From positions 1 to 64,000 of the forward strand of contig NZ_BDGT01000015.1 of assembly GCF_001748285.1 (NCBI RefSeq): a stretch of 64,000 bases of DNA, in the 5' to 3' direction. The notes beneath the pieces are model-generated. The model did not search any database and was not told the DNA's origin. It saw only the letters and a program-made list of their open reading frames with translations. Shown piece by piece: positions 14,446 to 48,313 of the stretch. Numbering within the stretch: the stretch's first letter is position 1; each line of letters opens with the position of its first letter. A program made the position numbers and the translations under genes. The DNA is from Thermogemmatispora onikobensis (GTDB taxonomy: Bacteria; Chloroflexota; Ktedonobacteria; Ktedonobacterales; Ktedonobacteraceae).

Positions 14446-17400
14446 TCACGAGGTTGTTGTGGGGGATAGTGTTGGCGGTGCCAGCAGCAGCACTGAAGGG
14501 ACGCGCTCGGGAGAGGCCAGGCGCAGGAGCGCAAAGCCGGCTCCGGCCAGTCCTGTCATCAGTCCGGGTGTCTCCACACCGAACGGCACGCCGCAGACCC
14601 AGCCCTGGCGCTCCATATTTTCCAGCAAGGCGGCGGCAATGCGTGGGATATGCTCGGCGAAAGTCTCGCCCGGCAGCAAACGCGCGGCGGAGATCAAGAT
14701 ATCCAGGTTCCCCAGGTCGCCGTGACAAAGGGAGTGGTTCAGGCCAAAACCCTGGGTCAGGGTTGTGCGCAGGCCGGCCTTGATCTCCTCCCTGATCGCC
14801 TGGTCATCGAGCAGCGGGAGCAGAGCCAGACGCGACAGAGCGACGCCGGGAGCGCCATGACACCAGGCCACCATATATTTCTCGCCCGTCGGCTGCCCGG
14901 CGCTGGAAGAAGGTGGACGCTGGCGCAGATCCAGCCAGTTCTGGCGTGAGGGCGAGAAAACCGTACGTTCGTAGGCCAGCGCTGCGCGGGCTGCCTCCAC
15001 AAAGCGTGGCTCTCCACTGGCCTGGGCTAACTGCATCAGATACAAGGCGATCCCGGCGTTCCCGTGAGCGAAACCGGCCAGTGCGACCGGCTGACGTGCC
15101 GTTGGCCAGCCGCAGCCGCCGCGGGCTTGGGGCTGGGCGTGGGCGAGCAGATGCTCGCCGCAGCGGACGGCAGCCGCCAGTGTTTCGGGCGAGGGAGAGA
15201 CACGCTGCAGGCAGAGCAAGGTCGCAATGGCGCCCGCCGCTCCGCCGATCACATCGTAGACCTGATCCTGCTCGATCTTCTCCACGAGCAGAGGGACCAG
15301 CTCCTCCGCCTGGCGATAGAGGGCTGGCTCGTGCCAGAGAGCGCCCAGGTGGCAGAAGAGATAGATTAACGAGCCGAGGCCGTTGAAGGCCCCTATTCCG
15401 TAAGCACGGGGGAAATACTGGCGGCGCATGATCTGCTGCTGGATCGTACGCAGGGCCATCCGTGCCAGCTCCGTATGGCGCTGCTCGCCTGTCAGATAGC
15501 CCAGATAAGCCAGAAAGAGGGCGATGCCGGCCAGGCCATTGTAGAGATCGCCATCGGCGGGCAGTAAGTGCCACTCGCGATCATTCACCGGTGTCACGCC
15601 CAGCCAGCCCACATACTCCCCCTGGTAGAGAGCAAACTGGCGCAGGCGGTTGCCGATCGCCGAGGCGGCGGCCAGCAGCCGCTCCAGGGTAGGGGAAGTG
15701 TGAGCGGGATGCAGCTCCAGGCGTGTATAGCTCTGGGGAGTAGTGGCGTCGATCATGCTCGTGAAAGAAGCGCGAATAATCCACAGCTGCTTCTCCAGAT
15801 CCAGCTCGCTCAACTCGGCCAGACGTCGGCGCACCACTTCCAGGCCAGGCTCGCTGAAGAAAGCCGGCAGGCGCTCGCCCTCTGACGTGAAGAGGTCGGT
15901 CGAGGCTGCCGTGGTGGTAAAAACGGGAATGTCCCCGCGCCACAGGTCGCGCCGCTCAGCGGGGATCAGCGGCACCAAATAGGGGAGGCGCTCCGTGGTG
16001 GCCCACAGCCGGTCAAAGAGGCGATCGCGGTCCAGGGCGTCGCGCAGCACATTAGGATGGAGGCTATCGACCAGCAGCTGCGTATAAATCCGGGTTGGAC
16101 GCAGCACGCAGCGGACCTCGGCCTCGGCAAAGCGCGGAAGATAGCTCTCGAGCAGCTCCGAACGCTGGGCCATGAGAAGACGGTAGGCGCGAGTGAAGCC
16201 CTCGATGAGGCACTGGCTATAATCCAGCACATTGATATCCTGATCATTGAGGCGCGGGCGATTCTCTTTCACAGGCAGTTCGACCCGCTCGTTAGCCAGG
16301 CGCATCTCATCGGTGCCTGCGCCCTTCCACCTGGGGACGGGGCGCGGCGAGAGCTGGCCGGGCTGACCTCCGAGGCCGCTCATATCGATCCCCTCGCCTT
16401 CCTGGTTCGACCAGAGGCGCTGTGGCAACAAGCCCACGCGCAGCACCGAATGGCCAATGGCCTCCAGACCCGGTGCGCCCTGGGCCTGCAGCACCTCGGG
16501 ATTGATCTGGGGTAAGAAGAGCGTCTCCAGATCGATCAGCATGGGATACTCGCCGGCAGCGATAATGTTCTCCGCATGGAAGTCTGAGGCCTCCAGTGCA
16601 TAGAGCAAGGCCAGGTATGCCCCCTGGCGCTGATAGAAGCGCTCGATCTCCTCGCGAGAAGAGCAGTGGCGAGCCTGGACAAACTCCACCCAACCATAGT
16701 GACCCCGGTCAAGGACCGTCAACGCACGCAGCGGTGGGCTGAAACCCCGTTCGTTCATCCAGGCGAGCAGCTCCTGAAAATGGCGATCGATAGCCAGCGA
16801 GCGCGGCTTGTAGACCAGGCGGAAACCGGAGTCCCAACGCAGCAAGATCACGCTCTGCCCGTTGCGGTGCAGGTCGCCGGCCCCCTGGTGGACCTCGCAT
16901 AGCGAGCCGGCCTCTTCGCTGGTGCGGAAAGTAGAGCAGATCAGTGGCCAATCATCGCTGAGGCGCTCAAGCAGCTCCAGCGAGCGGCAAACCCAGCGCT
17001 CCAGCGTCTCTGTCACCAGACGAGCCAGTACCACGTATTCTTGTAGAAAATCGAGTGTCGCCTCATACTTGCTCAGCTGCTCCAGAAAATAGTGAAAGCG
17101 CTCCTCTGAAGTGGCCCCCTGTAAGCGACCCTGAACCCGAGCGACATGAAGCTCCAGGACGATCGCGCGCGAAATAGAGGGCAGCAACAGCCCGGGAATA
17201 TTGCGCGCCAGGAGATCAAGGACCCTCTCAGGGTCGAACGAGAAGGCGAGAGAGCGCTGGGCCAGCTCCCGCAAGCCTGCAGCCAGCTTTTGTCTGGCGT
17301 GCCTGATCAGAGGCAGGAAAGGATGGAGGAATGAGCGCGTATGGCTCCCTTCCTCCAGACCCGGCAGAGGAGAAGGCCAGGCCGGCCCACGCTCTTCCTC

Positions 17401-17796
17401 CTTGCCGGTCGGGCTGGCGTGGGGAGTTGAGAAGGCCTCACTGAGAGTCAGCAGCCAGGCGGGAGGGGTAGGGCAGCGTGCACGCAGGGCTTCGGCAGGT
17501 TCACCCAACAGGAGCAGCAGCTCCTCCTCTCCTAATCCATCGAGTGCCAGGCGGGCAGCAAAGCGACCCTCTTCCTCGCTCAAGGCTGGCAGCTCTTTCC
17601 AGCGCTGCAGGCGCTGCTGGGCCCGGGCCTGGGCCTCCGCGTCAAGCGAGTCCAGGCCGGGAGAAAATGGGGCTGTGTGCAACAAGGCCAGGCGCTCGTT
17701 CAAGGTCAGAGCGCGGTACCAGCCGGCCTCTTGCCAGCGACCCTGCAGGTAGGAAGAAACGGAAGCGGTGAAAGTCTCGCTTGTGGTCTCGCTCAT
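14446..17796 (-). CDS. lanM: Type II lanthipeptide synthetase LanM
   Basis: LanM enzymes dehydrate Ser/Thr in a precursor peptide and then cyclise them with Cys to form (methyl)lanthionine rings. This protein has about 1116 residues, normal for the class. The N-terminal two thirds are the DUF4135 dehydratase (kinase-like; motifs such as SVILLRWDSGFRLVYKPRSL and DFHAENIIAAGEYPMLIDLE). The C-terminal LanC-like cyclase has the zinc ligands, seen as WCHGAPG and SLCHGDLGN (Cys about 979 and Cys-His about 1024-1025). Glycine-rich LanC motifs such as GLAGIALFLAYLGYL also fit. ATG 17796 is preferred; TTG 17829 is possible, and neither has a good ribosome site. It lies downstream of the precursor gene on the same strand, with a 523-base gap containing a hairpin, so it may be expressed at a lower level than the precursor. 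Confidence 0.93.
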   Translation of the reverse strand: MSETTSETFTASVSSYLQGRWQEAGWYRALTLNERLALLHTAPFSPGLDSLDAEAQARAQQRLQRWKELPALSEEEGRFAARLALDGLGEEELLLLLGEPAEALRARCPTPPAWLLTLSEAFSTPHASPTGKEEERGPAWPSPLPGLEEGSHTRSFLHPFLPLIRHARQKLAAGLRELAQRSLAFSFDPERVLDLLARNIPGLLLPSISRAIVLELHVARVQGRLQGATSEERFHYFLEQLSKYEATLDFLQEYVVLARLVTETLERWVCRSLELLERLSDDWPLICSTFRTSEEAGSLCEVHQGAGDLHRNGQSVILLRWDSGFRLVYKPRSLAIDRHFQELLAWMNERGFSPPLRALTVLDRGHYGWVEFVQARHCSSREEIERFYQRQGAYLALLYALEASDFHAENIIAAGEYPMLIDLETLFLPQINPEVLQAQGAPGLEAIGHSVLRVGLLPQRLWSNQEGEGIDMSGLGGQPGQLSPRPVPRWKGAGTDEMRLANERVELPVKENRPRLNDQDINVLDYSQCLIEGFTRAYRLLMAQRSELLESYLPRFAEAEVRCVLRPTRIYTQLLVDSLHPNVLRDALDRDRLFDRLWATTERLPYLVPLIPAERRDLWRGDIPVFTTTAASTDLFTSEGERLPAFFSEPGLEVVRRRLAELSELDLEKQLWIIRASFTSMIDATTPQSYTRLELHPAHTSPTLERLLAAASAIGNRLRQFALYQGEYVGWLGVTPVNDREWHLLPADGDLYNGLAGIALFLAYLGYLTGEQRHTELARMALRTIQQQIMRRQYFPRAYGIGAFNGLGSLIYLFCHLGALWHEPALYRQAEELVPLLVEKIEQDQVYDVIGGAAGAIATLLCLQRVSPSPETLAAAVRCGEHLLAHAQPQARGGCGWPTARQPVALAGFAHGNAGIALYLMQLAQASGEPRFVEAARAALAYERTVFSPSRQNWLDLRQRPPSSSAGQPTGEKYMVAWCHGAPGVALSRLALLPLLDDQAIREEIKAGLRTTLTQGFGLNHSLCHGDLGNLDILISAARLLPGETFAEHIPRIAAALLENMERQGWVCGVPFGVETPGLMTGLAGAGFALLRLASPERVPSVLLLAPPTLSPTTTS

Positions 17797-18319
17797 GGAA
17801 TCACGTGCTGAGATGCTGCGCAGGGGCAAGCGATCCTGCCGCTGTGGTCAGCGGTAAGGATACTGAGGCTGCGCCGTATCTCCTTTCTTTCTTCTTCATT
17901 GCTCGGTCGTTACCGATGGGATGCTGCAGCACTTGTGGCCTGCTGCTCATGTGGCTTGTCAACATGGAAGAATAGAGGTGAGCGGTGCGAAAAGACCTGC
18001 AACCGCTGGAAGGTAAGGAGCGCGGTGGTGGCTGAACTCAATTGTCTTGCAGACTACGAGTCGTGCAACAGTTGACTCGATCATCTACCATTCCCGAAGG
18101 CTTGGAGCAAGCGCTGACAGATAAAGGGCTGGTGGTAGGATTCCCGGATGTCATGGTGCCACAGGCGCCTGCTCATCTCCCATCCTGGATAGGTGAACGA
18201 GCGCCAGGAGGCTGAGCCTCAACTGGCGCGAACAGAGGGTCGGGACGGAGTCAGGCATCCCAACCCTCTGTGTATCCTGATCAGGCCATACCGAGACCCC
18301 TGGCGTGGGGCGACGACTG
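17797..18319. other. Intergenic region between lanthipeptide precursor and lanM
   Basis: No second precursor peptide was found on either strand. The region contains the composite hairpin at 18201-18229 and otherwise no recognisable feature. The length is unusual for a precursor-synthetase pair and leaves room for an internal promoter. Confidence 0.5.
18201..18229 (-). terminator. Composite hairpin after the lanthipeptide precursor gene
   Basis: GCGCCAG (18201-18207) pairs with CTGGCGC (18223-18229), and the inner GAGGC-TGA-GCCTC extends the stem. It lies 90 bases downstream of the precursor stop in the direction of lanM. There is no strong U-run, so partial termination or RNA stabilisation is more likely than full termination. 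Confidence 0.55.
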
Positions 18320-18568
18320 CTAGAGACAGCCGCCAGCGGCGTTGGTATTGCAGAGGCCGAGGAGCACAGCCAGGGACTGCAGACAGAGCACGGCAACCGT
18401 GTTATTGCACTCGTCGGTGTTGCCGTGGCCGCCCTGGACGGCCTCCAGATCTGCATCAGTCAGCTCGACCTCACCGATGGGGCTCTCAGGCAGCAGGCTG
18501 AGCTCCTCCTCGCTGAGGCTCTGGCGATAGGCTTCATCTTTCCATGCGCGAACGATGTCGAACTTCAT
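18320..18568 (-). CDS. lanA: Lanthipeptide precursor peptide (mersacidin/lichenicidin-type leader)
   Basis: The 82-residue product is a 47-residue leader plus a 35-residue core. The leader has the type II pattern VRAWKDEAYRQSLSEEE, then PIGEVELTDADLEAVQGG, ending in a double glycine cut by C39 proteases. In the core (numbered after GG) the modifiable residues alternate: Thr4, Cys7, Thr10, Cys15, Ser18, Cys26, Thr28, Cys34. There are four Ser/Thr and four Cys, each Cys lying C-terminal to one Ser/Thr, so four rings with no unused dehydrated residue are possible. Between the rings the core is hydrophobic (VAVL, LAVLLGL). The start is ATG 18568, with AAAGGAAA upstream; the frame is open further upstream, but without leader character. 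lanM lies downstream and lanT about 640 bases upstream, all on the minus strand. Confidence 0.92.
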   Translation of the reverse strand: MKFDIVRAWKDEAYRQSLSEEELSLLPESPIGEVELTDADLEAVQGGHGNTDECNNTVAVLCLQSLAVLLGLCNTNAAGGCL

Positions 18569-18720
18569 GTGCGTGCGTTTCCTTTCTTGTACCTTTGGTG
18601 TTGTTGTGGTGTCGTGCGTTCGGGCACCCCGTCTACGCTTTGGAATAACGCTGCCCAGACAGGTGACTTCCTGACGTCCCCAAGGTGGCCCTCCGACATC
18701 CGGCTCACCCTGCCTGAACA

Positions 18721-18741
18721 AAATACGTTCAAAGCGTATTT
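18721..18741. promoter_or_regulatory. Inverted repeat upstream of lanA, operator candidate
   Basis: AAATACG and CGTATTT are perfect 7-base arms separated by 7 bases, about 155 bases upstream of the precursor start. The geometry fits a dimeric helix-turn-helix regulator. No regulator gene is present in the cluster. Confidence 0.4.
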
Positions 18742-18758
18742 GTTACCCGAACGCCTAA

Positions 18759-18769
18759 GTACATTGTAC
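18759..18769. promoter_or_regulatory. Short palindrome upstream of lanA
   Basis: GTACATTGTAC is a palindrome with 5-base arms around one central base. It borders the AT-rich block that probably holds the promoter. A similar GTACA-TCT-TGTAC occurs at 48134-48146 between the TIR and glycerophosphodiesterase genes. Confidence 0.35.
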
Positions 18770-19203
18770 GGATAAAGCCAAATATATAAGTTTCAATATA
18801 TCATTTTTAAGGGAAGAAGAAAGAAAGGACGTAGGTCCGAAAGGGGAAAGCAGTGGAGGGGAAGAGGGCGACATTGCTGGTGAGCGATCTCCCACTTCAG
18901 CAGGGAGGTGCTCGTAGCTTTCTTGACCCAGACTTCGGAGCTGACTGGCTGAAGGCAGTCTCCTGTTACGCAGCGCACAGCTGCCAGGCATGCTGCGGTG
19001 GGATGATCCCGGCCCCGGCGATGTGAGGAGGTGGTGCCATTGCTGCTGAGAGCCTTGTTTGGGCCTCACGAGTGGCAAGACCGCATCGGAGGAGCTGAGT
19101 GATCAGTCCCATTGCATTGCTGCTAGAAGGAACAGCCGTGCCCCCTGGAGGGGGTCAGAGGTTCCCGGGGCCTTCTTTCTGGAGCCAGGCTCGAGTTTGC
19201 GCC

Positions 19204-21795
19204 TTAGTAGGCGCCAGCGCGAGCCTGGCGTTCCTCCTGTTCAAGTTGCTGTCGCATAAGCTGGGCGTAGTAGCCATGCTGCTGGAGCAACTGCTCGTGG
19301 GTTCCCTGTTCGATGATCATGCCATCGTGCATCACCAGGATCAGATCGGCGTCGCGGATGGTGCTCAGGCGATGAGCGATAATAATCTGCGTGCACGGAT
19401 AGGCGCGCAGATTCTCGGAGACGCGCTGTTCAGTAAGCACATCCAGATGGCTTGTGGCCTCGTCGAGGAGCAGAATGGCCGGCTCATTGACCAGGGCCCG
19501 TGCCAGGCAGAGGCGCTGCCGCTGGCCACCCGAGAGGGCGCTGCCGCCCTCGGCCACGGGGGTATCGTAGCCCAGCGGCATCCGCATGATGTCCTCGTGG
19601 ATAGCCGCAGCGGTCGCCGCTTTCACAATCCGCTCGTAAGGAACATTGGGATCGTTGAGGGTAATATTCTGCAAGATGGAGCCACTGAAGATCTGGCTGT
19701 CCTGTAGGACGACACCGAATTGACGCCGCACCTCCTGGTAGTTGAGCTGGCTCAGCGGCAGCCCATCGTAGTAGATCTCCCCTTCGGTCGGTGTGTAGAG
19801 GGCCAGCAAGAGCTTGCCCAGGGTGCTCTTGCCTGAGCCGGTGCGCCCGACAATGGCGACTTTCTGGCCTGGCTCAATACGAATATTGATCTCCTTAAGC
19901 ACCCGCGGGGCATCTGGTCCATATTGGAAACTCACATTCTGCACGTGAATGCGTCCGCTAAGTCGGGGAGGCAACTGCGCTTTCTCGATGTCCTGTTCCG
20001 GCTCTGCCGTCGTGACGTCAGTCAAGCGTTCCAGATGGGCGTAGAGGATCTGGAACTGTTGCCCGCTACTGACGAGCGAGGCAACAGGAGTCAGAAATGC
20101 GCTGGCCAGTGTATTGAGAGCCAGCATGGTACCGACGCTGAGATGGCCATTGAGGACCTGATAGGCACCAATCCACAGCAAGGCGATCGGCGAGAAGATC
20201 CGGAGAATCGTCATGGCCGTATTAATGCCGGCCTGCAAGTAGCTGAGGCGCAGGGTGATATTCAGCCGCTCGTAGAAGAGATTCGACCAGCGTTCGAGCG
20301 CGCGCTGCTCGGCGCCGGCGGCCTTGAGGGTGGCCATGCCAGCCAGGGTCTCGGCCAAGTAGCCCTGAGCTTTCCCCTGGGCCGCCAGATCGCGGCTAGC
20401 CAGGTCCAGCACGATGCGATGGGTGCCCAAAAGGACCAGAACCTGGAGCAGTCCCAGGCCGAGGGTCAGGAGTGCAAAGATCGGCGATTGCCAGAGCAGA
20501 ATGAAGAGGTAAGCGATGACTGTGCCGCTATCCAGCAGGGTTGAGATGAGCTGGTTGCTCAGCGTGTCGCGGATAATCGTGTTGCTGCCCAGGCGTTGCA
20601 GCAGGTCGCCGCTGGAGCGCTGTTGAAAGAAGCTGAAGGGCAGAGTGAGCAGATGCTCGAAGAAGCCGAGCACCAGCTGAATGTCGACGCGGGCTCGCAG
20701 GTAGACCAGCAACCACTCGCGGAGGATGGTTGTAGTGGCCTGGGCCGCCAGGAGGAGGAGCAGGCCAAGGCCCAGGATGCTCATGATATCGGCCATGTGA
20801 GCTGGCAGGATCTGGTCGATGACGATCTTGGTGAGCAGGGGCAGGAGCAGGCCGAAGAGCTGCAGGAAGAGAGAGGCTCCCAGCACCTGGAGCAGGGTGC
20901 CGCGCGTTTGACGGGCAAACTGCTTGACCTGCATCCAGAGAGTGACACGGTGAGCGCTGCCTTCGGTACTGAAGTGTACCCCTGGCTCGAAGAGGATCAC
21001 AATGCCGGTGAAGCCGGCGTCGAACTCTTCGGGCGTGAGCCGCTTACGTCCCCAGGCGGGGTCGATGACCTCGATCCAGCGAGGGGTCCAGCGCTCGACG
21101 ACGATGAAGTGCTTGAATTCCCAGTGGACTACTGCCGGAAGTGGAACGGCGCGGAAATCCTCAGTGCGCTGCAGCGAGATAGCTCGTGTGCGCAGCCCGT
21201 AGCTACGCGCGGCTTTCACTATGCTCAATGCTGAGAGGCCGTCGCGTCCCAGGCCGTGCCGCATGCGCAGTTCGGAGACCGAGGTAGGACGTCCGTAGTA
21301 GTTGAGGATCATGGCCAGACAGGCATAGCCACACTCGACGACGTTCATTTGAGTCAGGGGACGGACACGTCGCCGTCGCCAGCCTCGACTGCCTCGGCCA
21401 AACCAGGACTGCTTTCTGGGACGCTTGCCGTCCTTGCCTGCTGTCACCCCTGGGCTGACCTGACCCTGTTGCTCAGTGGGCCGGGCCTCCGCTGAGACAG
21501 GTAGCTGCTGGTCGTCTGCCTGCCTGCAATGCACAGCGGCGACTGGGGCTGCTGGCATTGGCACAGGGGTGGTTGCTGGCGCTGACTTCTGCTTGGCTGG
21601 CAGGCGCAAATGAGGGCGGATAGCTGGATAGTCTCCTTCCTGCTGAAGCACAATCGGACGAATACGCCGTCTCTTGAGCGGTCGACGTGCAGTGATATAT
21701 TCTTGTGGATCGAAGATGTCTACATAGTCACGATCCTGGGTGACTTCCTGTCCATACTGTCTATACTGTCTATACTGCCCATAGTCGTGCATCAT
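19204..21795 (-). CDS. lanT: Lanthipeptide exporter with C39 leader protease (LanT)
   Basis: This bifunctional ABC exporter cleaves the leader after the double glycine and exports the product. The 863 residues comprise an unusual N-terminal extension (1-145, Tyr/Gln repeats then basic and Pro-rich), a C39 peptidase domain (about 146-275; catalytic Cys155 in NVVECGYACLAMI, His in HWEFKHFIVV, Asp in VIDPAWG), six membrane helices (about 305-580) and an ATPase domain. The ATPase motifs are GRTGSGKSTLGK (Walker A), ALSGGQRQRL (signature), AILLLDEATSHLD (Walker B) and IIAHRLS (H-loop). ATG 21795 has GGGAG nine bases upstream. Its start overlaps the stop of the HlyD-like gene by four bases (ATGA), so the two are translationally coupled. 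Confidence 0.93.
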   Translation of the reverse strand: MMHDYGQYRQYRQYGQEVTQDRDYVDIFDPQEYITARRPLKRRRIRPIVLQQEGDYPAIRPHLRLPAKQKSAPATTPVPMPAAPVAAVHCRQADDQQLPVSAEARPTEQQGQVSPGVTAGKDGKRPRKQSWFGRGSRGWRRRRVRPLTQMNVVECGYACLAMILNYYGRPTSVSELRMRHGLGRDGLSALSIVKAARSYGLRTRAISLQRTEDFRAVPLPAVVHWEFKHFIVVERWTPRWIEVIDPAWGRKRLTPEEFDAGFTGIVILFEPGVHFSTEGSAHRVTLWMQVKQFARQTRGTLLQVLGASLFLQLFGLLLPLLTKIVIDQILPAHMADIMSILGLGLLLLLAAQATTTILREWLLVYLRARVDIQLVLGFFEHLLTLPFSFFQQRSSGDLLQRLGSNTIIRDTLSNQLISTLLDSGTVIAYLFILLWQSPIFALLTLGLGLLQVLVLLGTHRIVLDLASRDLAAQGKAQGYLAETLAGMATLKAAGAEQRALERWSNLFYERLNITLRLSYLQAGINTAMTILRIFSPIALLWIGAYQVLNGHLSVGTMLALNTLASAFLTPVASLVSSGQQFQILYAHLERLTDVTTAEPEQDIEKAQLPPRLSGRIHVQNVSFQYGPDAPRVLKEINIRIEPGQKVAIVGRTGSGKSTLGKLLLALYTPTEGEIYYDGLPLSQLNYQEVRRQFGVVLQDSQIFSGSILQNITLNDPNVPYERIVKAATAAAIHEDIMRMPLGYDTPVAEGGSALSGGQRQRLCLARALVNEPAILLLDEATSHLDVLTEQRVSENLRAYPCTQIIIAHRLSTIRDADLILVMHDGMIIEQGTHEQLLQQHGYYAQLMRQQLEQEERQARAGAY
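21751..21786 (-). repeat. Nine-base tandem repeat in the lanT 5' coding region
   Basis: Units tccatactg, tctatactg, tctatactg and a diverged cccatagtc run in tandem. In the message they encode repeated Tyr-Arg-Gln / Tyr-Gly-Gln tripeptides at residues 4-15. Gain or loss of a unit keeps the frame. Confidence 0.7.
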
Positions 21796-22914: not shown

Positions 22915-24153
22915 TTATTCCCCCTGGCTGGGTTTAGGGTTCGTGCGGAAGCGGATGGGTAGCAGGGGCCGGCCATCTGGGGCGAAAGGGTTAGGAAAAC
23001 TGGGCGAGGAGCCTGACTGCTGCTCAGCCTCAGCGAGGATAGCGAGCAGGCGGGCGCGGTGAGGAGAAAGGTGACAGGCGGGGTCGGTGTTGGCGGCGTC
23101 CCCTGTCAGCAGGAAGGCCTGGCAGCGGCAGCCGCCGAAGTCCTGTTCGCGCAGCGGGCAGCTGCGGCAAGGCTCGGGCATCCACTGACTACCGCGGAAA
23201 CGCTCAAAGGCTGCTGATTGCTGCCAGATCCAGGCCAGGGGGTGCTGGCGCACATTCTCAAAATGCAGGTTGGGGATGACACGAGCGGTCTGGCAGGGCA
23301 GGACTGCGCCGTCGGGGGTGACGGTCAGATAGCGGCGGCCCCAGCCATACAAGCAAGGCTTGGGGCGTTCGGCGTAATAATCGGGCCAGATGTAGATGAT
23401 TTCCATACGTCCGCGCAGGCGCTCCTGGGCTGCGCGGGCAATCCTTTCGGCCTGCTGCACCTGAGCTTTTGTTGGCAGCAGCGCGGCTTTGTTGGAGAAT
23501 GCCCAGCCCAGGTACTGTGTATTGGCCAGCTCCAGGCGCTGGGCCCCCAGCTGCTCTGCCAGGGCTATCATCGCCGGGAGGCGCTCGATGTTGCCGCGAT
23601 GGAGGACCATATTGAGCGTCAAGGGCAGGCCGCAGGCGTTAACCAGGCGAACAGCCTCTAGCTTGCGCTCGTGAGCGCCTGGGCAGCCGGCAATGCCATC
23701 GGCCAGAGCAGCTTCATCAGCCTGGATGCTGATCTGAATGCTATCAAGTCCAGCTTCCTGCAGTTCCTGGAGGCGACGTCGTGTCAAGCCGAGAGCGCTG
23801 GTGATCAGATTGGTATAAAGGCCGGCAGCGCGAGCGCTGGCCACCAGGACAGGCAAATCGCGCCGCAGCAGCGGCTCACCGCCTGAAAAGAGCAGATGCA
23901 AGACCCCGAGAGCGGCGGCCTCACTGATGACCCGCTGCCACTCGGCTGTTGTCAGCTCGGGCTGGCGCTGATCTGGGAAAAGCTGCGTTGGATTCGAACA
24001 GTAAGGACAATGCAGCGGACAGCGATAGGTTAACTCCGCTAGTAGACCGAACGGTCGTAGCATATGGCCCGGGGCGGTCTGGGAGCCATCGCCCGCCGGC
24101 TGGTGGGTTCTGGACGAGGGGGGCAGTCTCATCTGCTGCTCGTCAAGCCTCAT
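22915..24153 (-). CDS. pqqE: PQQ biosynthesis radical SAM enzyme PqqE
   Basis: PqqE uses S-adenosylmethionine radical chemistry to join the Glu and Tyr side chains of PqqA while PqqD holds the peptide. The 412-residue protein has the radical SAM motif CPLHCPYC (CxxxCxxC, about residues 43-50), SAM-binding FSGGEPLLR, and a C-terminal SPASM region. Its cysteines occur in VLPCQTARVI, PCRSCPLREQDFGGCRCQAF and DPACHLSPHR, ligands for auxiliary iron-sulfur clusters. The WMPEPCRSCPLRE segment is typical of PqqE. It is the last gene of pqqABCDE, with a 99-base gap after pqqD. Confidence 0.93.
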   Translation of the reverse strand: MRLDEQQMRLPPSSRTHQPAGDGSQTAPGHMLRPFGLLAELTYRCPLHCPYCSNPTQLFPDQRQPELTTAEWQRVISEAAALGVLHLLFSGGEPLLRRDLPVLVASARAAGLYTNLITSALGLTRRRLQELQEAGLDSIQISIQADEAALADGIAGCPGAHERKLEAVRLVNACGLPLTLNMVLHRGNIERLPAMIALAEQLGAQRLELANTQYLGWAFSNKAALLPTKAQVQQAERIARAAQERLRGRMEIIYIWPDYYAERPKPCLYGWGRRYLTVTPDGAVLPCQTARVIPNLHFENVRQHPLAWIWQQSAAFERFRGSQWMPEPCRSCPLREQDFGGCRCQAFLLTGDAANTDPACHLSPHRARLLAILAEAEQQSGSSPSFPNPFAPDGRPLLPIRFRTNPKPSQGE

Positions 24154-24252
24154 AATGGTCGTCCTCTCTGGCGGTAAAGCCTGGCAGATGACCTGGCCTG
24201 CCTTGGAGTGAGCAGGGAGTCAGGGCGAGGGAGAGAGCGGGCAAGCTCTGGT

Positions 24253-24564
24253 CTACTCTAGCCAGGCGATGAGATTGTGGTCTCGCAGCGAACAGAGATA
24301 CTCATAAACGTCGCGCTGCAGCTGCTCAGGACTGGCCTCGTAACGGCTCGCCAGCTCTCGCAGGATGTCGGCCAGCGTGTGCTCGCCGTTGCAGAGCTGC
24401 AAGATAGCAGCTGCGGTCTCATTGAGCATCATTACGCCCTCGGGATAAAGCAGAACAGGCTGCTGGCTCAGGCGATCGATTTCCAGCCGTGCTCTGGGAA
24501 GCAGGCGGGGACGCAGCGCCTGCGCAGATGGAGGGAGGTGGCTGCCTTCGCTGGACATGCTCAT
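24253..24564 (-). CDS. pqqD: PQQ biosynthesis peptide chaperone PqqD
   Basis: PqqD is the small RiPP recognition protein that binds PqqA and presents it to PqqE. The 103-residue product contains the family motifs QPVLLYPEGVMMLNETAAAIL and GEHTLADILRELASRY, then the helical C-terminus (DVYEYLCSLRDHNLI). The N-terminal 20 residues are a variable extension. Its start overlaps the pqqC stop by four bases (ATGA), so translation is coupled. The same fold occurs in RiPP precursor recognition elements generally. Confidence 0.92.
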   Translation of the reverse strand: MSMSSEGSHLPPSAQALRPRLLPRARLEIDRLSQQPVLLYPEGVMMLNETAAAILQLCNGEHTLADILRELASRYEASPEQLQRDVYEYLCSLRDHNLIAWLE

Positions 24565-25337
24565 CGACGACCTTCCTGCGGGGCGGGAATAGTGGCGCTG
24601 GAACTGGTCGCCGTCAGTGCCAGCTCATTGGGCTGGGGGCCGTAGGCGAACTGCAGGGCGTCGAGCATGCTCCAGAGTACGTCGCATTTGAAAGCCAGTG
24701 CCTGGATGGCGCCCTCCTGCAGCTGGCGCGTTGTACAGTAGCGCACAGTCAGCTCTAGTGCTTGAGCGGCGTCGCGTGGTGCCTGCTGCAAACGCGCCCG
24801 GAAATAGGCCAGTCCCTCCGGGCGAATCCAGGTGTAATAGCGCTCAAAGGCTGTCAGACGCTCGCTCATCAGGTCGGGAGAAAACAACTCGGTCAGCGAG
24901 GAAGCCACGGCCAACGGCCACGGCTGCTGACGGGCGAAGGTTACATAAGCTTCGACGGCGAAGCGTACCCCAGGGAGCACCTGCCGTCCACTCAGGACCT
25001 CCTCGCGAGAGAGGCCGCTTGCTTCGGCCAGCTTGAGCCAGGCCGCGATGCCGCCCTCGCCCTCGCGCTCCCCATCGTGATCGCTGATGCGATGAAGCCA
25101 GAGCCGGCGAACCTCTGGAAGAGGACAATTGGCAAGAATGGCGGCGTCTTTCATAGGAATGTGCTGTTGATAATAGAAGCGGTTCATGATCCAGGCGCGG
25201 ATCTGCTCAGGGGTAAGGGTGCCCTGGTTCATGGCCTGATGAAAGGGGTGGAGATGGTGGTAGCGAGTCATGCCAATAGCCTGGAGTTGGGCCACGAAGG
25301 TCTCGCGGTCCCAGGGCTCAAGCTCTACTGTGCTCAT
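24561..25337 (-). CDS. pqqC: Pyrroloquinoline-quinone synthase PqqC
   Basis: PqqC is a cofactorless oxidase that closes the last ring and performs the final eight-electron oxidation to PQQ. The 258-residue protein fits the family: YHHLHPFHQAMNQGTLTPEQ, then NRFYYQQHIPMKDAAILANC (conserved active-site Tyr/His/Lys residues), RRLWLHRISDHDGE, and AYVTFARQQPW and SSLTELFSPD in the middle. The start is ATG 25337, with GAGAGGAGC upstream. It lies 87 bases after pqqB and overlaps pqqD. Confidence 0.94.
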   Translation of the reverse strand: MSTVELEPWDRETFVAQLQAIGMTRYHHLHPFHQAMNQGTLTPEQIRAWIMNRFYYQQHIPMKDAAILANCPLPEVRRLWLHRISDHDGEREGEGGIAAWLKLAEASGLSREEVLSGRQVLPGVRFAVEAYVTFARQQPWPLAVASSLTELFSPDLMSERLTAFERYYTWIRPEGLAYFRARLQQAPRDAAQALELTVRYCTTRQLQEGAIQALAFKCDVLWSMLDALQFAYGPQPNELALTATSSSATIPAPQEGRR

Positions 25338-25424
25338 AGTAGCTCCTCTCTTCGCTCTTGCTTACTCAAGCTACCCTGCTTCCCCTGGTCGGCTTCAGGC
25401 GAGGAGGAGGCGAGGGTGCGCGGA

Positions 25425-26351
25425 TCAAAGCCGCAGTTCTAGCCCATCCCAGCCAATAATCAGCCCGGCAGCGCACACGGCGGCGTGCTGAGGGGAGTCT
25501 TCAACCAGGACGGGGTTAGTATTATTGATATGGGTATAAATGCGATAGGGAATAGGAAGATGGCTGAGCCAGGCCAGGCTGCCCTGTGGCCCATCGATTG
25601 GAAGATGACCCATGCTGCTCGCGGTAGCCTGGACGAGTCCCTGCGTCTGCAGCTCATCTTCGCTCCAGAAGGTTCCGTCGACGAGCATGGCATCGCAAGC
25701 CTGCAGGTAGGACTGCAGTAGCTCCTCTCTCCGGGCCAGTCCTGGCAGGAAGAGCAGACGTCCGCCAGTCTGCACATCTGTGAGATAATAGCCAACGCGG
25801 AAAGAGGAGGGGGTGGCAAGCGCACTGGCCTCTGCCAGGTAACGCGGGGACTTGCCGGTCAGCGGGATAGCCTGATAGAGCAGGCCGCTCGCCTGGCCCA
25901 CGGCAGTAGGCAGCGGGGCCAGCTCTTCGGAAGGTTCGCGCCACTCAACGCTGCAGTAATGAGCAAGCAACTGCGGCAGGGCCAGCCCCTGGCGCAAGGC
26001 GTGCTGGACCGCCGCAGGTGCATAGATAGTCAGAGCCGAGCGCTCCCGAAGGAGTAGGAGGCCCAGGGTATGGTCAAGCTCGGCGTCGGTCAGCAGAATG
26101 GCCTCAATAGGCGTGCCACGCCTGCAAGAGCCGGGGGGCCAGAGGGGTGGAAAACCTTCGAGCTGAGTGCGCAGATCAGGGGAGGCATTGAGTAGAAACC
26201 AGCGCTCGCCATCGGCGCTCACTGCCACACAGGACTGAGTACGCGCCCTTGCTTTGAGCTGCCCCGCGCGTAGGCCCCGGCAGTTCACACAATTGCAGTT
26301 CCACTGAGGGAAGCCGCCCCCTGCTGCTGTGCCAAGCAGACGCACCAACAT
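25425..26351 (-). CDS. pqqB: PQQ biosynthesis metallohydrolase PqqB
   Basis: PqqB is a metallo-beta-lactamase-fold protein thought to hydroxylate the Tyr part of the cross-linked PqqA product. The 308-residue protein starts MLVRLLGTAAGGGFPQWNC and has the zinc-binding cysteines in WNCNCVNCRG. The metal motif is the PqqB variant (LLTDAELDHTLGLLLLR) in place of HxHxDH. C-terminal motifs are MGHLPIDG and YTHINNTNPVL. It lies 214 bases downstream of pqqA, and two hairpins occupy that gap. Confidence 0.94.
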   Translation of the reverse strand: MLVRLLGTAAGGGFPQWNCNCVNCRGLRAGQLKARARTQSCVAVSADGERWFLLNASPDLRTQLEGFPPLWPPGSCRRGTPIEAILLTDAELDHTLGLLLLRERSALTIYAPAAVQHALRQGLALPQLLAHYCSVEWREPSEELAPLPTAVGQASGLLYQAIPLTGKSPRYLAEASALATPSSFRVGYYLTDVQTGGRLLFLPGLARREELLQSYLQACDAMLVDGTFWSEDELQTQGLVQATASSMGHLPIDGPQGSLAWLSHLPIPYRIYTHINNTNPVLVEDSPQHAAVCAAGLIIGWDGLELRL

Positions 26352-43727: not shown

Positions 43728-44057
43728 GTGAACGAGGAACTCCGCAGAATCGTTGAGCAAGTCGAGCAGTTGGACTCGGCTGTACAGAAGGCTATTGTCC
43801 TTGCTGTCTTCTTTATCCTCCTTTCAGTATCCTCAAGCGGGTCGGGGCGGAGGCTCTCGACCTTTCTAGGGCTGCCAGGCGCTCGCGCAGTCTTGGGCGT
43901 GAGAGATTGCCTGGAGACCGCAGGGGTGAAGAAGGGGAGAGAACTGTCGACTAAACTGACACATGGGAGAGAAAAGAGGGCGAGGCCGCTTCTCAAGCGG
44001 CCTCGGAGTGGTGGAGATGGGGGAGAGTCGAACTCCCCGTCCAGGCAACCCTGTTAA
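43728..44057 (+). CDS. Possible small membrane protein overlapping the 3' end of ssrA
   Basis: GTG 43728 is preceded by a consensus AGGAGG six bases upstream. The first 45 residues look real: VNEELRRIVEQVEQLDSAVQ is a charged helix followed by one membrane segment (KAIVLAVFFILLSVSSSG). Further on, the sequence becomes basic and runs through the ssrA terminator and into the tmRNA 3' end on the opposite strand, up to residue 109. Either the gene is truncated or its true end was lost through a frameshift. No family is recognised. The overlap makes the downstream half doubtful. Confidence 0.35.
   Translation: MNEELRRIVEQVEQLDSAVQKAIVLAVFFILLSVSSSGSGRRLSTFLGLPGARAVLGVRDCLETAGVKKGRELSTKLTHGREKRARPLLKRPRSGGDGGESNSPSRQPC
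43965..44004 (-). terminator. Rho-independent terminator of ssrA
   Basis: GAGGCCGCTT (43982-43991) and AAGCGGCCTC (43995-44004) form a perfect 10-base-pair stem with a CTC loop. Reading leftward it is followed by GCCCTCTTTTCTCTC. It lies five bases from the tmRNA 3' end. Confidence 0.8.
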
Positions 44058-44535: not shown

Positions 44536-44913
44536 TTATTTCAGGCGCTCCAAAAAACGTTGGAGGTGGACAATAAAACGCTCGTGGATGCCTTCCCCGA
44601 TTTTCTTCTCCTCGTCATAAGCCTCGACCCTAAACACCAGGCGCCGACCATCCACCTCGACCAGCTCGGCGGTAGCACGCACCCGCTGGCCGATCGGCGT
44701 CGCCGCCAGATGCCGCACATCGACGCGCGTTCCCACAGAGACATACCCCGCCTCTAAAACATCGGCCACCGCTCGCCAGGCGGCGTTCTCCATCAAAGCG
44801 ATCATCATCGGGGTCGCAAAGACCTCGACACCTCCCGCCCCAACGGCGGCGGCTGTGTTCTCATAGACGACAGTCGTGCTTGCCTCTCCCTTTAGCCCTG
44901 GTTGCAAGCTCAT
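44536..44913 (-). CDS. Thioesterase-family protein (FlK-like hotdog fold)
   Basis: The 125-residue protein is a single hotdog domain. Its segments match the fluoroacetyl-CoA thioesterase-like group: VEVFATPMMIALMENAAWRAV, with Thr and the EN motif of the active helix, GTRVDVRHLAATPIGQRVRATAE with the catalytic-type His, and GEGIHERFIVHLQRF. It probably hydrolyses an acyl-CoA; the substrate is unknown. The start is ATG 44913, with GGGAG six bases upstream. Longer frames to 45000 add unrelated sequence. It follows the TIR gene on the same strand after 144 bases. Confidence 0.85.
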   Translation of the reverse strand: MSLQPGLKGEASTTVVYENTAAAVGAGGVEVFATPMMIALMENAAWRAVADVLEAGYVSVGTRVDVRHLAATPIGQRVRATAELVEVDGRRLVFRVEAYDEEKKIGEGIHERFIVHLQRFLERLK

Positions 44914-45057: not shown

Positions 45058-48003
45058 CTAGTGGGAAACAATCGCGCTCCCTGGACCCGCTCCCGCCCGG
45101 GCCTGTCCCATTGAAAGGCCCTGGACCTGCCGCGCCTGAATCTCCCGAGCGCGGGCACGCAGCTCAAGCGCTCGACTGACCTGACGTGTCTGCTGCAGTA
45201 ACAGAGCATAGTTCTCCAGAAAGCGCGCGTACGTCGGGTGGTTCTTACCGAAAGCCCGCTCACCAACCTCTAAGGCCCGCTTGAAGAGTGCCCGCGCTGG
45301 ACCATGCTTGTGCAGAGCGGTATACAGGGTTGCCAGATTATTGAGATTGATCGCTAGCGCCGGATGGTCAGCTCCTAACATCCTCTCACGGATCTGAAGA
45401 GCGCTCTGATAAAGCGACTCCGCCCGCTCATACTCACCGCGATCATGATAGAGCATCGCCAGATTTTCCAGACAGCTTGCAGTATAGGGATGCTCATCCC
45501 CAAGCAACTGCTGGTAGATCATCAGCGCTCGTTGATGGAGCAGCTCGGCCTGCCCATAACGCCCAGTCTCACGATAGAGCAGGGCCAGATTATTCAAAGT
45601 CGTCGCCAGATCCAACTGCTCAGCGAGAGGCAGGCTCTCATGAATCGCCAGGGCCTGCAGATAGCACTGCTCAGCTTGCTCATGGTGCCGCTGCGCGTGA
45701 TAGAGGCTGCCCAGCGCGCTCAGCGTCTGTGCCACAGCTGGATGTTCGCCCCCCAGCAGATGCTCGCGTATCAGCAGCGCTCGTCGATAGAGCAGCTCCG
45801 CCTGCTCATAGCGTCCCTGGACCCGGTAGAGCGTTGCTAACTCGTGATACAGTGTAGCGAGCAGCGGATGCTCAGGCGCCAGCTCTGGCTGCCAACTCTC
45901 CAGCACCTGCAGGAAGAGCGCTTCGGCCCGCTCGAAATCACGTCGGTCACGATAGAGCAGAGCCAGCCGATACAAGGCCCGCGCCAATCCCTGGCGATCG
46001 CTCCCCGCCTGCCGCTCTTCGATAGCGACCACTCTCTGATAGAGCGCCTCGGCCTCGGGCAATCGCCCCTGTTCCTCGTAGAAAAGCCCAAGATTGTAGA
46101 GGCTGGCACTCAATTCAGGATGCTCAGGCCCAAGCTGCTGCTCACGTATGGCCAGTGCACGACGTAAGAGCGGCTCAGCCTCACGGTAGGCCACACAACG
46201 TTGCAGATAGTACCCCGTCTGCTCCAGCAGCCGGGCAGCGTCAGGACTGACTAGCTGCCACTCTTCGATCCAACGAGCACAGGTAAGCAAGTGCGGCAGA
46301 TAGGCCCGATAAAGAGCAGTCGGGGCAGCGGCCTCACTCAAACAGGCGCTCTCTACCAGGCGGATAGTCTGCTCCGCCCACAGCAGACGCGATTCTCGGC
46401 TCAGACGCTGACGGACACAGGCGCTCACCGCCCGATGGAGGACCAGCGACCCTTGACTGTAGTCGGCCAGCGCAAAGCGGCGTAGCTCGTGGATCAGCCT
46501 GAGCAGCTCGAACTGCTCCAGCAAACACTGACCCAGGCTCTCCCCTAGCTCGCCGCCACCGCTAACCAGCATCTCAAGGGGAATACGATCGGGCTGCAGA
46601 AAGGAGCAGAGACGCAATAGCTCAGTGGCAACTGGACTGCTGCGCTCGGCTCGTGAGAGACTGATATGCAGAACGATGGCCAACGGCTCAGAGAGAGCGC
46701 TGATCAACTGGCTGGCCGACCAGGCCCTCCGCTGAAGCTCAACAGTAGCCTGCTTATAGAGGTTCAGATAACTGCTGAGGCTACATTGCTCTGTCTCGAT
46801 ATAGGCGCCAGCCAGAGTGAGCGCCAGAGGAGAAGCCCGCAGCAAAGCAACCACCTCGTCGGCCCGGCTGGCCTCAGACGGAGGAGCCTGCTCCAGCGTC
46901 GCCTCCACCGGGAGCAAGCCAGCGGCACGCAGCAAGAGAAGCGCGGCCTCCTCAGCCTCAAGCGCAGGCAGCTTCACATGCATAGCCTTGGGCAAGGTTA
47001 ATGGCTGACGAGCCAGCAGAATCAGATGACCGCGAGCCCCCATAGGCAGCAGATCACGAACCACCTCGCTATCCGCCACATTATCCAGGATCAGCAACCA
47101 GCCCGACCTCTTTTCTAGCCAGCGGCGCACCGCCAGAGCAACCAGATATTGATGAGGAAGCGTATGCTCCGGCAACCCCAACGCCTCAGCGATACGTGCC
47201 AACTCGTGGATGAGTAGCTGACGACTGGCGGCATTGACCCAGAGCACAGCCTCATACTCGTGGCCGTAGCGATAAGCATACTCAAGCGCCAGCTGTGTTT
47301 TCCCGCTGCCGGCTGGTCCACTCACCACTTGCGGCGGAGTGACCGCGCTGGCCTTGTTACTAATAGGCATGTCGTGCAGATAAGCCAACAGTGAGGCGCG
47401 ACCGGTGAAGAGCGGATTCCGACGATATGGTACCAACCAGAGCGGGGACAAAGGTGAAGAAGAGACTACCGCCGCTTTCTCTGCTGGCGAGGCCGGTGGT
47501 GGGGAAAGTGGCGGTAGCTGGATGGCCGCCGGGGGAACGATCGCATTTGTCGCAGCAGCGGCGGCGGAAAGCCAGGTCCCCAGCTCCACAGCCACCTGCT
47601 GCCAGGCCGCTTCACGGTCCTCCCAGGCGCTAATCGCCACACCGTTGGTCGGCAGAACCGCTAAATCGGCCAGCGGTGTATCATCGCGCTCCGTCGGACG
47701 CACAAGTATGGGAATCACACGCGCCAGGCCGGCTTTGTGACGCAGGAGGGCCACTTTCAGCTCCGCGCTGTAGCAGTAAGCAGAGTGCACAAAGTCGGGG
47801 CTGACCAACAGGAGAATGAGCTGCGCACGTTCCAGGGCAGGACTGATCTCACCGCTTCCTTGCCAGGAAAGACCCTGGGCCGTAGCACACTCCTCCCAAT
47901 CAGCAATGAGACCTTGCCAGCGGAGTTGATAGAGATGATTAATAAGTTCGTTACGCGCGGCTTCGTCTTTGAAGGTGTAGGCCAGGAAGACCTTCACTGC
48001 CAT
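45058..48003 (-). CDS. TIR / NB-ARC / TPR protein, NLR-like immune receptor candidate
   Basis: This 981-residue protein has three parts. An N-terminal TIR_2 domain (about 1-150) shows KVFLAYTFKDEAARNELINH, ILLLVSPDFVHSAYCYSAEL (the likely catalytic Glu of NAD-cleaving TIR domains) and PTNGVAISAWEDREAAW. An NB-ARC STAND ATPase follows (about 185-480): FTGR, GPAGSGKTQLALEYAYRY (Walker A), GWLLILDNV (Walker B). The C-terminal sensor region has about eight tetratricopeptide repeats of 42 residues (pattern A..LY.RAL.IRE..LG.EHP...L..LA.LY...G). This is the architecture of plant and bacterial NLR-type receptors, and TIR-STAND proteins are known antiphage systems that deplete NAD. AAGGAG seven bases upstream supports ATG 48003. 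Next to it are a thioesterase and tmRNA, with no other defence gene in sight. Confidence 0.9.
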   Translation of the reverse strand: MAVKVFLAYTFKDEAARNELINHLYQLRWQGLIADWEECATAQGLSWQGSGEISPALERAQLILLLVSPDFVHSAYCYSAELKVALLRHKAGLARVIPILVRPTERDDTPLADLAVLPTNGVAISAWEDREAAWQQVAVELGTWLSAAAAATNAIVPPAAIQLPPLSPPPASPAEKAAVVSSSPLSPLWLVPYRRNPLFTGRASLLAYLHDMPISNKASAVTPPQVVSGPAGSGKTQLALEYAYRYGHEYEAVLWVNAASRQLLIHELARIAEALGLPEHTLPHQYLVALAVRRWLEKRSGWLLILDNVADSEVVRDLLPMGARGHLILLARQPLTLPKAMHVKLPALEAEEAALLLLRAAGLLPVEATLEQAPPSEASRADEVVALLRASPLALTLAGAYIETEQCSLSSYLNLYKQATVELQRRAWSASQLISALSEPLAIVLHISLSRAERSSPVATELLRLCSFLQPDRIPLEMLVSGGGELGESLGQCLLEQFELLRLIHELRRFALADYSQGSLVLHRAVSACVRQRLSRESRLLWAEQTIRLVESACLSEAAAPTALYRAYLPHLLTCARWIEEWQLVSPDAARLLEQTGYYLQRCVAYREAEPLLRRALAIREQQLGPEHPELSASLYNLGLFYEEQGRLPEAEALYQRVVAIEERQAGSDRQGLARALYRLALLYRDRRDFERAEALFLQVLESWQPELAPEHPLLATLYHELATLYRVQGRYEQAELLYRRALLIREHLLGGEHPAVAQTLSALGSLYHAQRHHEQAEQCYLQALAIHESLPLAEQLDLATTLNNLALLYRETGRYGQAELLHQRALMIYQQLLGDEHPYTASCLENLAMLYHDRGEYERAESLYQSALQIRERMLGADHPALAINLNNLATLYTALHKHGPARALFKRALEVGERAFGKNHPTYARFLENYALLLQQTRQVSRALELRARAREIQARQVQGLSMGQARAGAGPGSAIVSH

Positions 48004-48313
48004 GTTCTGGCTCCTTGCGTATGAGTGAGACAAGGGCAGTTCCTTGCCCTACCGCCGGGAAGTACAAGGTTCTTCGCTGTCTGGCAAACGGCTAAAAAGG
48101 ATGAACGCCCTTCGAACAAAACACGAAGGTAACGTACATCTTGTACAGTGGCTACACATCTAGTATACACTCAGTGAGAGCGAGGCCGCAATAAATGAGG
48201 CGAGGAATCCGAAACGGCCCTTGCTCGCTATCGGCTTCAGAGCTGATACGGCCCATCTGCTTCACTAGAGAAATTTATTTAAGTAAAGTGTAACATTTTA
48301 TATGGAGTGATGT
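48004..48313. other. Divergent promoter region between TIR and glycerophosphodiesterase genes
   Basis: The region holds GTACA-TCT-TGTAC (48134-48146) and a possible plus-strand promoter at 48141-48169. An AT-rich stretch precedes the ribosome site of the next gene. No gene is supported. Confidence 0.45.
48141..48169 (+). promoter_or_regulatory. Possible promoter of the glycerophosphodiesterase gene
   Basis: TTGTAC (48141-48146) and TATACA (48164-48169) are spaced by 17 bases. The -35 overlaps the right arm of the GTACA-TCT-TGTAC repeat. Confidence 0.4.

Follow-up and report, generated by a model that had tools for sequence, protein, structure and literature searches.

On the minus strand of the 64,000-nucleotide stretch of the Thermogemmatispora onikobensis (class Ktedonobacteria) genome analyzed here (hereafter, the window), an open reading frame starting with ATG and read from position 48003 to 45058 (45058..48003) encodes a protein of 981 aa in which a TIR domain, an NB-ARC ATPase, a DUF7779 domain, and an array of TPRs follow one another. 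A good ribosome-binding site, AAGGAG (48011..48016, minus strand; read from the sequence), precedes the start codon by 7 nt. The TIR domain (residues 1-140; 47584..48003, minus) was detected by Pfam TIR_2 (residues 5-115, 33 bits against a cut-off of 28), the PADLOC ThsB TIR profile, a profile search, and a structural model, and is joined to the rest of the protein by a variable linker rich in Pro, Ala, and Ser (residues 141-193; 47425..47583, minus), which in the ortholog alignment is 66% identical on average, with gaps of at most 5 residues. The NB-ARC STAND ATPase (residues 194-425; 46729..47424, minus) was delineated with Pfam NB-ARC (residues 227-418, 33 bits against a cut-off of 23.5) and a family alignment (A1). 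DUF7779 (46231..46728, minus; Pfam match over the cut-off at residues 452-538, and alignment A1) occupies the winged-helix position, and TPR_12/TPR_10 matches, also over the cut-off, extend across residues ~600-960. The effector, the NOD, and the superstructure repeats, that is, the tripartite chain of NLRs, are all in one protein, and the P-loop, the Walker B motif, and an NB-ARC core followed by what, judging from its position, is probably a winged-helix-type domain are features of the STAND/AP-ATPases. With all four domains over their Pfam cut-offs and in this order, the NLR-like architecture noticed in a preliminary description of this DNA is confirmed: this is a genuine NLR-like TIR-STAND-TPR protein, belonging to a known protein class.

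The candidate catalytic glutamate of the TIR head, E81 (47761..47763, minus), lies within the motif YCYSAEL (residues 76-82). This residue is invariant in two alignments (A2 and A5) and, along with the surrounding YCYSxEL, in the six Thermogemmatispora orthologs, among which the TIR domain is 93% identical on average. The profile made from the window TIR and its relatives matched the solved NADases Cat1 and AbTIR, the archaeal TIR 7uxr, and plant and animal TIRs, and the PADLOC ThsB TIR profile scored 116 bits against the domain. In the alignment with 7uxr, WTEYEL of the archaeal protein pairs with CYSAEL of the window TIR, which places E81 in the position of the catalytic Glu of TIR NADases. 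An AlphaFold2 model of the TIR domain alone was built from nine sequences, the alignment having been deepened with a few TIR loci from viral contigs that were found by closer alignment and a DNA pattern in the viral-contig scan; it reached a pLDDT of 90.4 and a pTM of 0.86, with E81 at the N-terminus of helix 80-90 and with residues 44-49 of the BB-loop as its uncertain part (pLDDT <50). The best matches in a fold search with this model were TIR domains, with modest TM-scores of ~0.5. The earlier identification of a TIR domain with a likely catalytic Glu thus withstood the alignments, the Pfam cut-off, and the modeling.

Several features would nevertheless suit a pseudo-enzyme scaffold, that is, a TIR domain that does not cleave NAD+ and mediates only TIR-TIR contacts with the other TIR proteins of the cell. 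The BB-loop region is divergent, with WEERATGQG and a two-residue insert in Thermogemmatispora vs WHDRxIxxG in the relatives; the branch leading to Thermogemmatispora in the NB-ARC-DUF7779 tree is long (0.86); the nearest sister clade in the tree (L088/L129) has Gln in the E81 column, although Glu is kept in most TIR-headed relatives within Ktedonobacteria; and ten TIR_2 matches were found in the genome that contains the window (G000, with the window on contig C15). Against such a loss of catalysis stand the invariance of E81 and YCYSxEL in six species, the high identity of the TIR domain, and its low dN/dS (0.096), and we consider the scaffold unlikely.

The NB-ARC switch retains both nucleotide-binding motifs, as had been claimed for a STAND ATPase from the letters of the sequence. 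Walker A, GPAGSGKT (residues 229-236; 47296..47319, minus), is invariant in the six orthologs, and its G229, G234, K235, and T236 are invariant across the family alignment; Walker B, LLILDN (residues 303-308; 47080..47097, minus), is likewise invariant in the orthologs, and its D307 is invariant in the family. In Walker B, the Asp is single and the next residue is Asn, as in most relatives. In the DUF7779 part of the family alignment, the HR(L/A)V motif conserved at ~523 could be MHD-like. A comparison of the NB-ARC region with solved structures gave no match, and the full-length AlphaFold2 model computed with six close orthologs had a mean pLDDT of 57, such that residues 1-347 were unusable and the TPRs alone were trusted.

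Nine TPR units of 42 residues each (residues 592-969; 45097..46230, minus) were delimited by autocorrelation, unit listing, and the model. The self-identity of the protein is 0.35 at a lag of 42, whereas no other lag between 30 and 55 exceeds 0.17, bearing out the regular 42-residue C-terminal repeats of the preliminary description, and Pfam TPR_NPHP3 matches the repeats with 222 bits (cut-off 100). The same description had called the repeats highly regular, which holds for the unit length in the protein and fails for the DNA: the mean identity between units is 34% in protein and ~47% in DNA, and no array was reported in the TPR region by Tandem Repeats Finder. At a mean DNA identity of 47%, the repeats are too different for slippage, and the proposed variation in repeat number is not supported: the number is identical in 6/6 Thermogemmatispora species, with no gap in the TPR region.

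Full-length syntenic copies of the protein, 84-92% identical, were found by protein search only in Thermogemmatispora, namely, in T. carboxidivorans, T. aurantia, T. tikiterensis, and two MAGs, besides the window genome, with exactly one such copy in each of the six genomes searched. In all six, the TIR gene is flanked by a GDPD gene and an FlK-like thioesterase gene, and the order of the further neighbors (glycosyltransferase, DUF2079 membrane protein, pyruvate dehydrogenase genes, and MFS transporter) is preserved as far as the contigs reach; in the window, the immediate neighbors are FlK, GDPD, MFS, and GT2. The FlK-like gene (44536..44913, minus; Pfam FlK, 137 bits; synteny) lies downstream of the TIR gene after a 144-nt gap and is the next gene on the same strand in 6/6 species. 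The notion of a self-contained receptor is plausible: no constant partner gene was found among relatives in other genera, near which transposases are often present, although within the genus the FlK gene always follows. Recent horizontal acquisition of the TIR gene was considered and is not supported because its GC (0.60) and GC3 (0.65) are those of the neighbors and the synteny extends across the genus.

Pairwise dN/dS values among the six genomes (Nei-Gojobori method) tell of strong constraint. For the whole TIR gene, dN/dS is 0.094, close to the values for its neighbors (GDPD, 0.070; GT2, 0.044; FlK, 0.029), and by part it is 0.096 for TIR, 0.084 for NB-ARC, 0.131 for DUF7779, 0.051 for the TPRs, and 0.289 for the linker. 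The gene is under purifying selection, which is strongest in the TPRs, and combined with the synteny, these values form the pattern of a conserved core gene, with no sign of an arms race. Antiphage defense systems are expected to be patchily distributed, but this gene is present, in synteny, in 6/6 genomes; it is a long-established, slowly evolving component of the genus, not a fast-evolving anti-virus gene. Such conservation argues against a rapidly diversifying receptor and yet is compatible with immunity, because conservation is seen as well in guards and in sensors whose ligands are invariant.

Core status, synteny, strong purifying selection, and the same-strand FlK thioesterase partner in 6/6 species would also fit an endogenous switch for development, starvation, or stress in these filamentous bacteria, where the TPRs would sense some protein or peptide of the cell itself and the TIR domain would make a nucleotide second messenger, with no killing involved; the HTH heads found elsewhere on this body, a layout known from STAND transcription regulators, point in this direction, too. 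However, relatives outside Thermogemmatispora were not found to be paired with FlK, no operon with developmental genes was seen, and bacterial TIR domains are mainly known from defense. On balance, an endogenous switch of this kind appears possible, if doubtful.

With regard to defense, the neighborhood is equivocal. The window neighbors of the TIR gene are metabolic and housekeeping genes; the PADLOC matches among 36 of them look like housekeeping cross-matches (DEDDh exonuclease, helicases, and radical SAM), the one stronger match being MzaA, which was not tied to a gene. At a strict threshold, PADLOC returned none for nine of the larger window neighbors, and ThsA was not found beside the TIR gene. 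On the link to defense islands that had been raised, the findings diverge: no island was recognized in the window, but three sister species have a type I-D CRISPR-Cas locus or a CRISPR array immediately downstream, and AbiE or restriction genes adjoin 2 of the 4 plasmid relatives examined. The position concerned, 43927..43928, is empty in the window, as defined by blastn breakpoints and by the arrays and cas genes of the sister species, and its flanks match T. aurantia at 95-96% (blastn). In T. carboxidivorans (L093/L064) and T. tikiterensis (L095:1401-15008), a type I-D CRISPR-Cas locus accompanied by CRISPR arrays lies directly downstream of TIR-FlK, with the T. tikiterensis genes named by NCBIfam as Csc3, Csc2, Csc1, Cas3', Cas6, and Cas1d; T. 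aurantia (L097:1172-3009) has at this site a 25-repeat array without cas genes. The Csc3 match of the window's genome is on another contig (C59), and that of T. aurantia is on C2. CRISPR loci are thus either drawn to the site beside the TIR gene or have been lost from it, whereas the TIR gene itself persists. Elsewhere in the window, we noted a probable lanthipeptide cluster (14446-21795), with a LanM-type lanthipeptide synthetase (DUF4135 and LANC_like) and a C39-peptidase ABC transporter, and a row of pqqB/C/D/E-like genes for PQQ cofactor synthesis (22915-26351, minus), judged from translations alone.

Beyond the genus, the protein belongs to a wider family, with matches at E <1e-100 in 27 of the 47 Ktedonobacteria genomes. 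In this class of bacteria, the NB-ARC-DUF7779-TPR body carries in some cases a TIR head and in many others an HTH_XRE head (Pfam-confirmed in L075), and the HTH-headed proteins look like transcription regulators. A tree of 61 NB-ARC-DUF7779 regions implies ~5-7 head changes, of which at least two are forced by well-supported branches, a count that is approximate because the heads were classed by simple profiles and the tree backbone is weakly resolved. Given how often this body is found with an HTH head, its ancestral output was possibly transcription. That the gene is core, syntenic in 6/6 genomes, strongly conserved, flanked by housekeeping genes, and built on a body common to HTH-headed proteins leaves its designation as a defense receptor in the preliminary description a hypothesis.

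The body has relatives on 172 plasmid records; none was found in 50,697 phage records, and five weak relatives were detected in IMG/VR contigs. A predicted viral IMG/VR contig (L098:5524-7464) encodes the NB-ARC-DUF7779-TPR body with a different head, HNH-like by eye and without a Pfam match. Four further loci (L026:979-2655, L037, L030, and L029) encode proteins of 560-600 aa in which the TIR domain leads directly into DUF7779-TPR, without NB-ARC, apparently a switch-less version of the same receptor. TIR domains also appear in other combinations. In 5/6 Thermogemmatispora genomes (L140:4565-8239, on contig C53 of the window's genome, and L028, L031, L032, and L035), a ~1225-aa fusion protein combines an N-terminal TIR domain, which keeps the motif YCYGVEM, with a type ISP restriction-modification enzyme (ISP_coupler and N6_Mtase), and a 384-aa protein on contig C24 of the window's genome (L042:1477-2628), with homologs in the other Thermogemmatispora genomes, is a trypsin-like protease with a C-terminal TIR domain.

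The automatic name of the protein calls for separate consideration. NF040586 (FxSxx_TPR) matches it with 337 bits vs a cut-off of 300, so that NCBIfam would name it FxsT, and TIR-AP-ATPase-TPR proteins have indeed been reported downstream of FxSxx peptide systems in multicellular bacteria, as part of VMAP ternary conflict systems (PMC7159879). Were the name to reflect function, the protein would be the effector of an FxSxx-COOH peptide/VMAP system. However, no FxsB radical-SAM protein over the cut-off was found in the window's genome, the best TIGR04269 match, on another contig, having 73 bits vs 370; VMAP-C had no match in this genome, with the control genomes equally silent; and the neighbors are housekeeping genes and FlK. 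Strict membership in an FxSxx-COOH system was rejected for want of FxsB, the FxSxx partner not being found, and the name FxsT, therefore, is not to be taken as function; we deem such a role highly improbable. Three plasmid genes named fxsT (NC_011061.1, NZ_AP026079.1, and NZ_CP102510.1) likewise have no annotated FxsA/FxsB nearby, and two of the three adjoin restriction or AbiE genes, which suggests that NF040586 names many stand-alone NB-ARC-TPR proteins. The automatic name spreads well past the true FxSxx systems.

What, then, might this protein do? With roughly even chances, in our estimate, it is a single-protein, NLR-type switch whose output is a TIR NADase and which probably serves dormancy or death triggered by infection or damage. 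At rest, the NB-ARC/DUF7779 core would be held closed, probably by the TPR superhelix. Binding of a protein ligand by the TPRs would allow the core to exchange nucleotide and oligomerize, bringing together the TIR heads, which, once assembled, would cleave NAD+ through E81; the drop in NAD+, or else a cADPR-type signal, would then stop or kill the infected or damaged cell. The absence of diversification in the sensor repeats suggests that the ligand in Thermogemmatispora is probably a conserved one, either a host protein or process that is disturbed by infection or stress and is guarded, or an invariant phage component. More tentatively, and on the whole doubtfully, one could go further and propose that a single NB-ARC-DUF7779-TPR body in Ktedonobacteria takes a TIR NADase head or an HTH head interchangeably, so that one type of sensor could lead either to cell death or to transcription, and that the Thermogemmatispora copy, instead of being a phage receptor in an arms race, is a core, slow-evolving guard of a conserved cellular component, in parallel to the conserved plant TNPs. 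No bacterial proteins resemble plant TIR receptors more closely in layout than those of the TIR-NB-ARC-TPR type, and our literature searches found no experimental characterization of any of them. A single-copy gene conserved across a genus is well suited to studies of what is sensed by a receptor of this type and of whether host components can be guarded by bacterial NLRs, and an exchange of TIR and HTH heads within one class would allow the shared sensor-switch to be studied by an easy transcription read-out.

Among known systems, the defense TIR NADases Thoeris ThsB and Cat1 have the same broad kind of TIR domain, Cat1 being the best solved-structure match by sequence, but the window TIR is fused to its own sensor switch, and neither ThsA nor a type III CRISPR cOA receptor was seen next to it. 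For the Avs/bNACHT antiphage STAND proteins, ligand-triggered oligomerization is an established mechanism. The window protein shares with them a STAND ATPase, an N-terminal effector, and a C-terminal sensor, whereas its core is Pfam NB-ARC and DUF7779, with no NACHT match, and the effectors and sensors are different. The NPHP3/DUF4062-STAND-TPR proteins (PMC13174449) likewise combine a TIR-like head with STAND and repeats, and TPR_NPHP3 recognizes the window TPRs, but the head here is TIR_2, not DUF4062. TIR/AP-ATPase/TPR proteins have already been predicted to be effectors of NTP-dependent conflict systems (PMC7159879). The FxsT/AP-ATPase effectors of FxSxx-COOH peptide and VMAP ternary systems (PMC7159879; NF040586) have the same TIR-AP-ATPase-TPR layout, and the window protein scores over their NCBIfam cut-off; it differs in having no FxsB over the cut-off and in its housekeeping neighborhood. 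Bacterial TIR-NB-TPR proteins have been described as architectural counterparts of plant TNPs (TIR-NBARC-TPR), with similarity confined to the NB domain, not TIR or TPR, and with bacterial TIRs grouping apart (PMC9806590); the resemblance need not, therefore, reflect orthology, and the plant function is only partly known. Still, the maize TNP requires both the TIR Glu and the P-loop for cell death (PMC9806590), and the Thermogemmatispora protein has the same domain order, an intact P-loop and TIR Glu, and, like the plant TNPs, is conserved, low in copy number, and widespread in its lineage rather than expanded.
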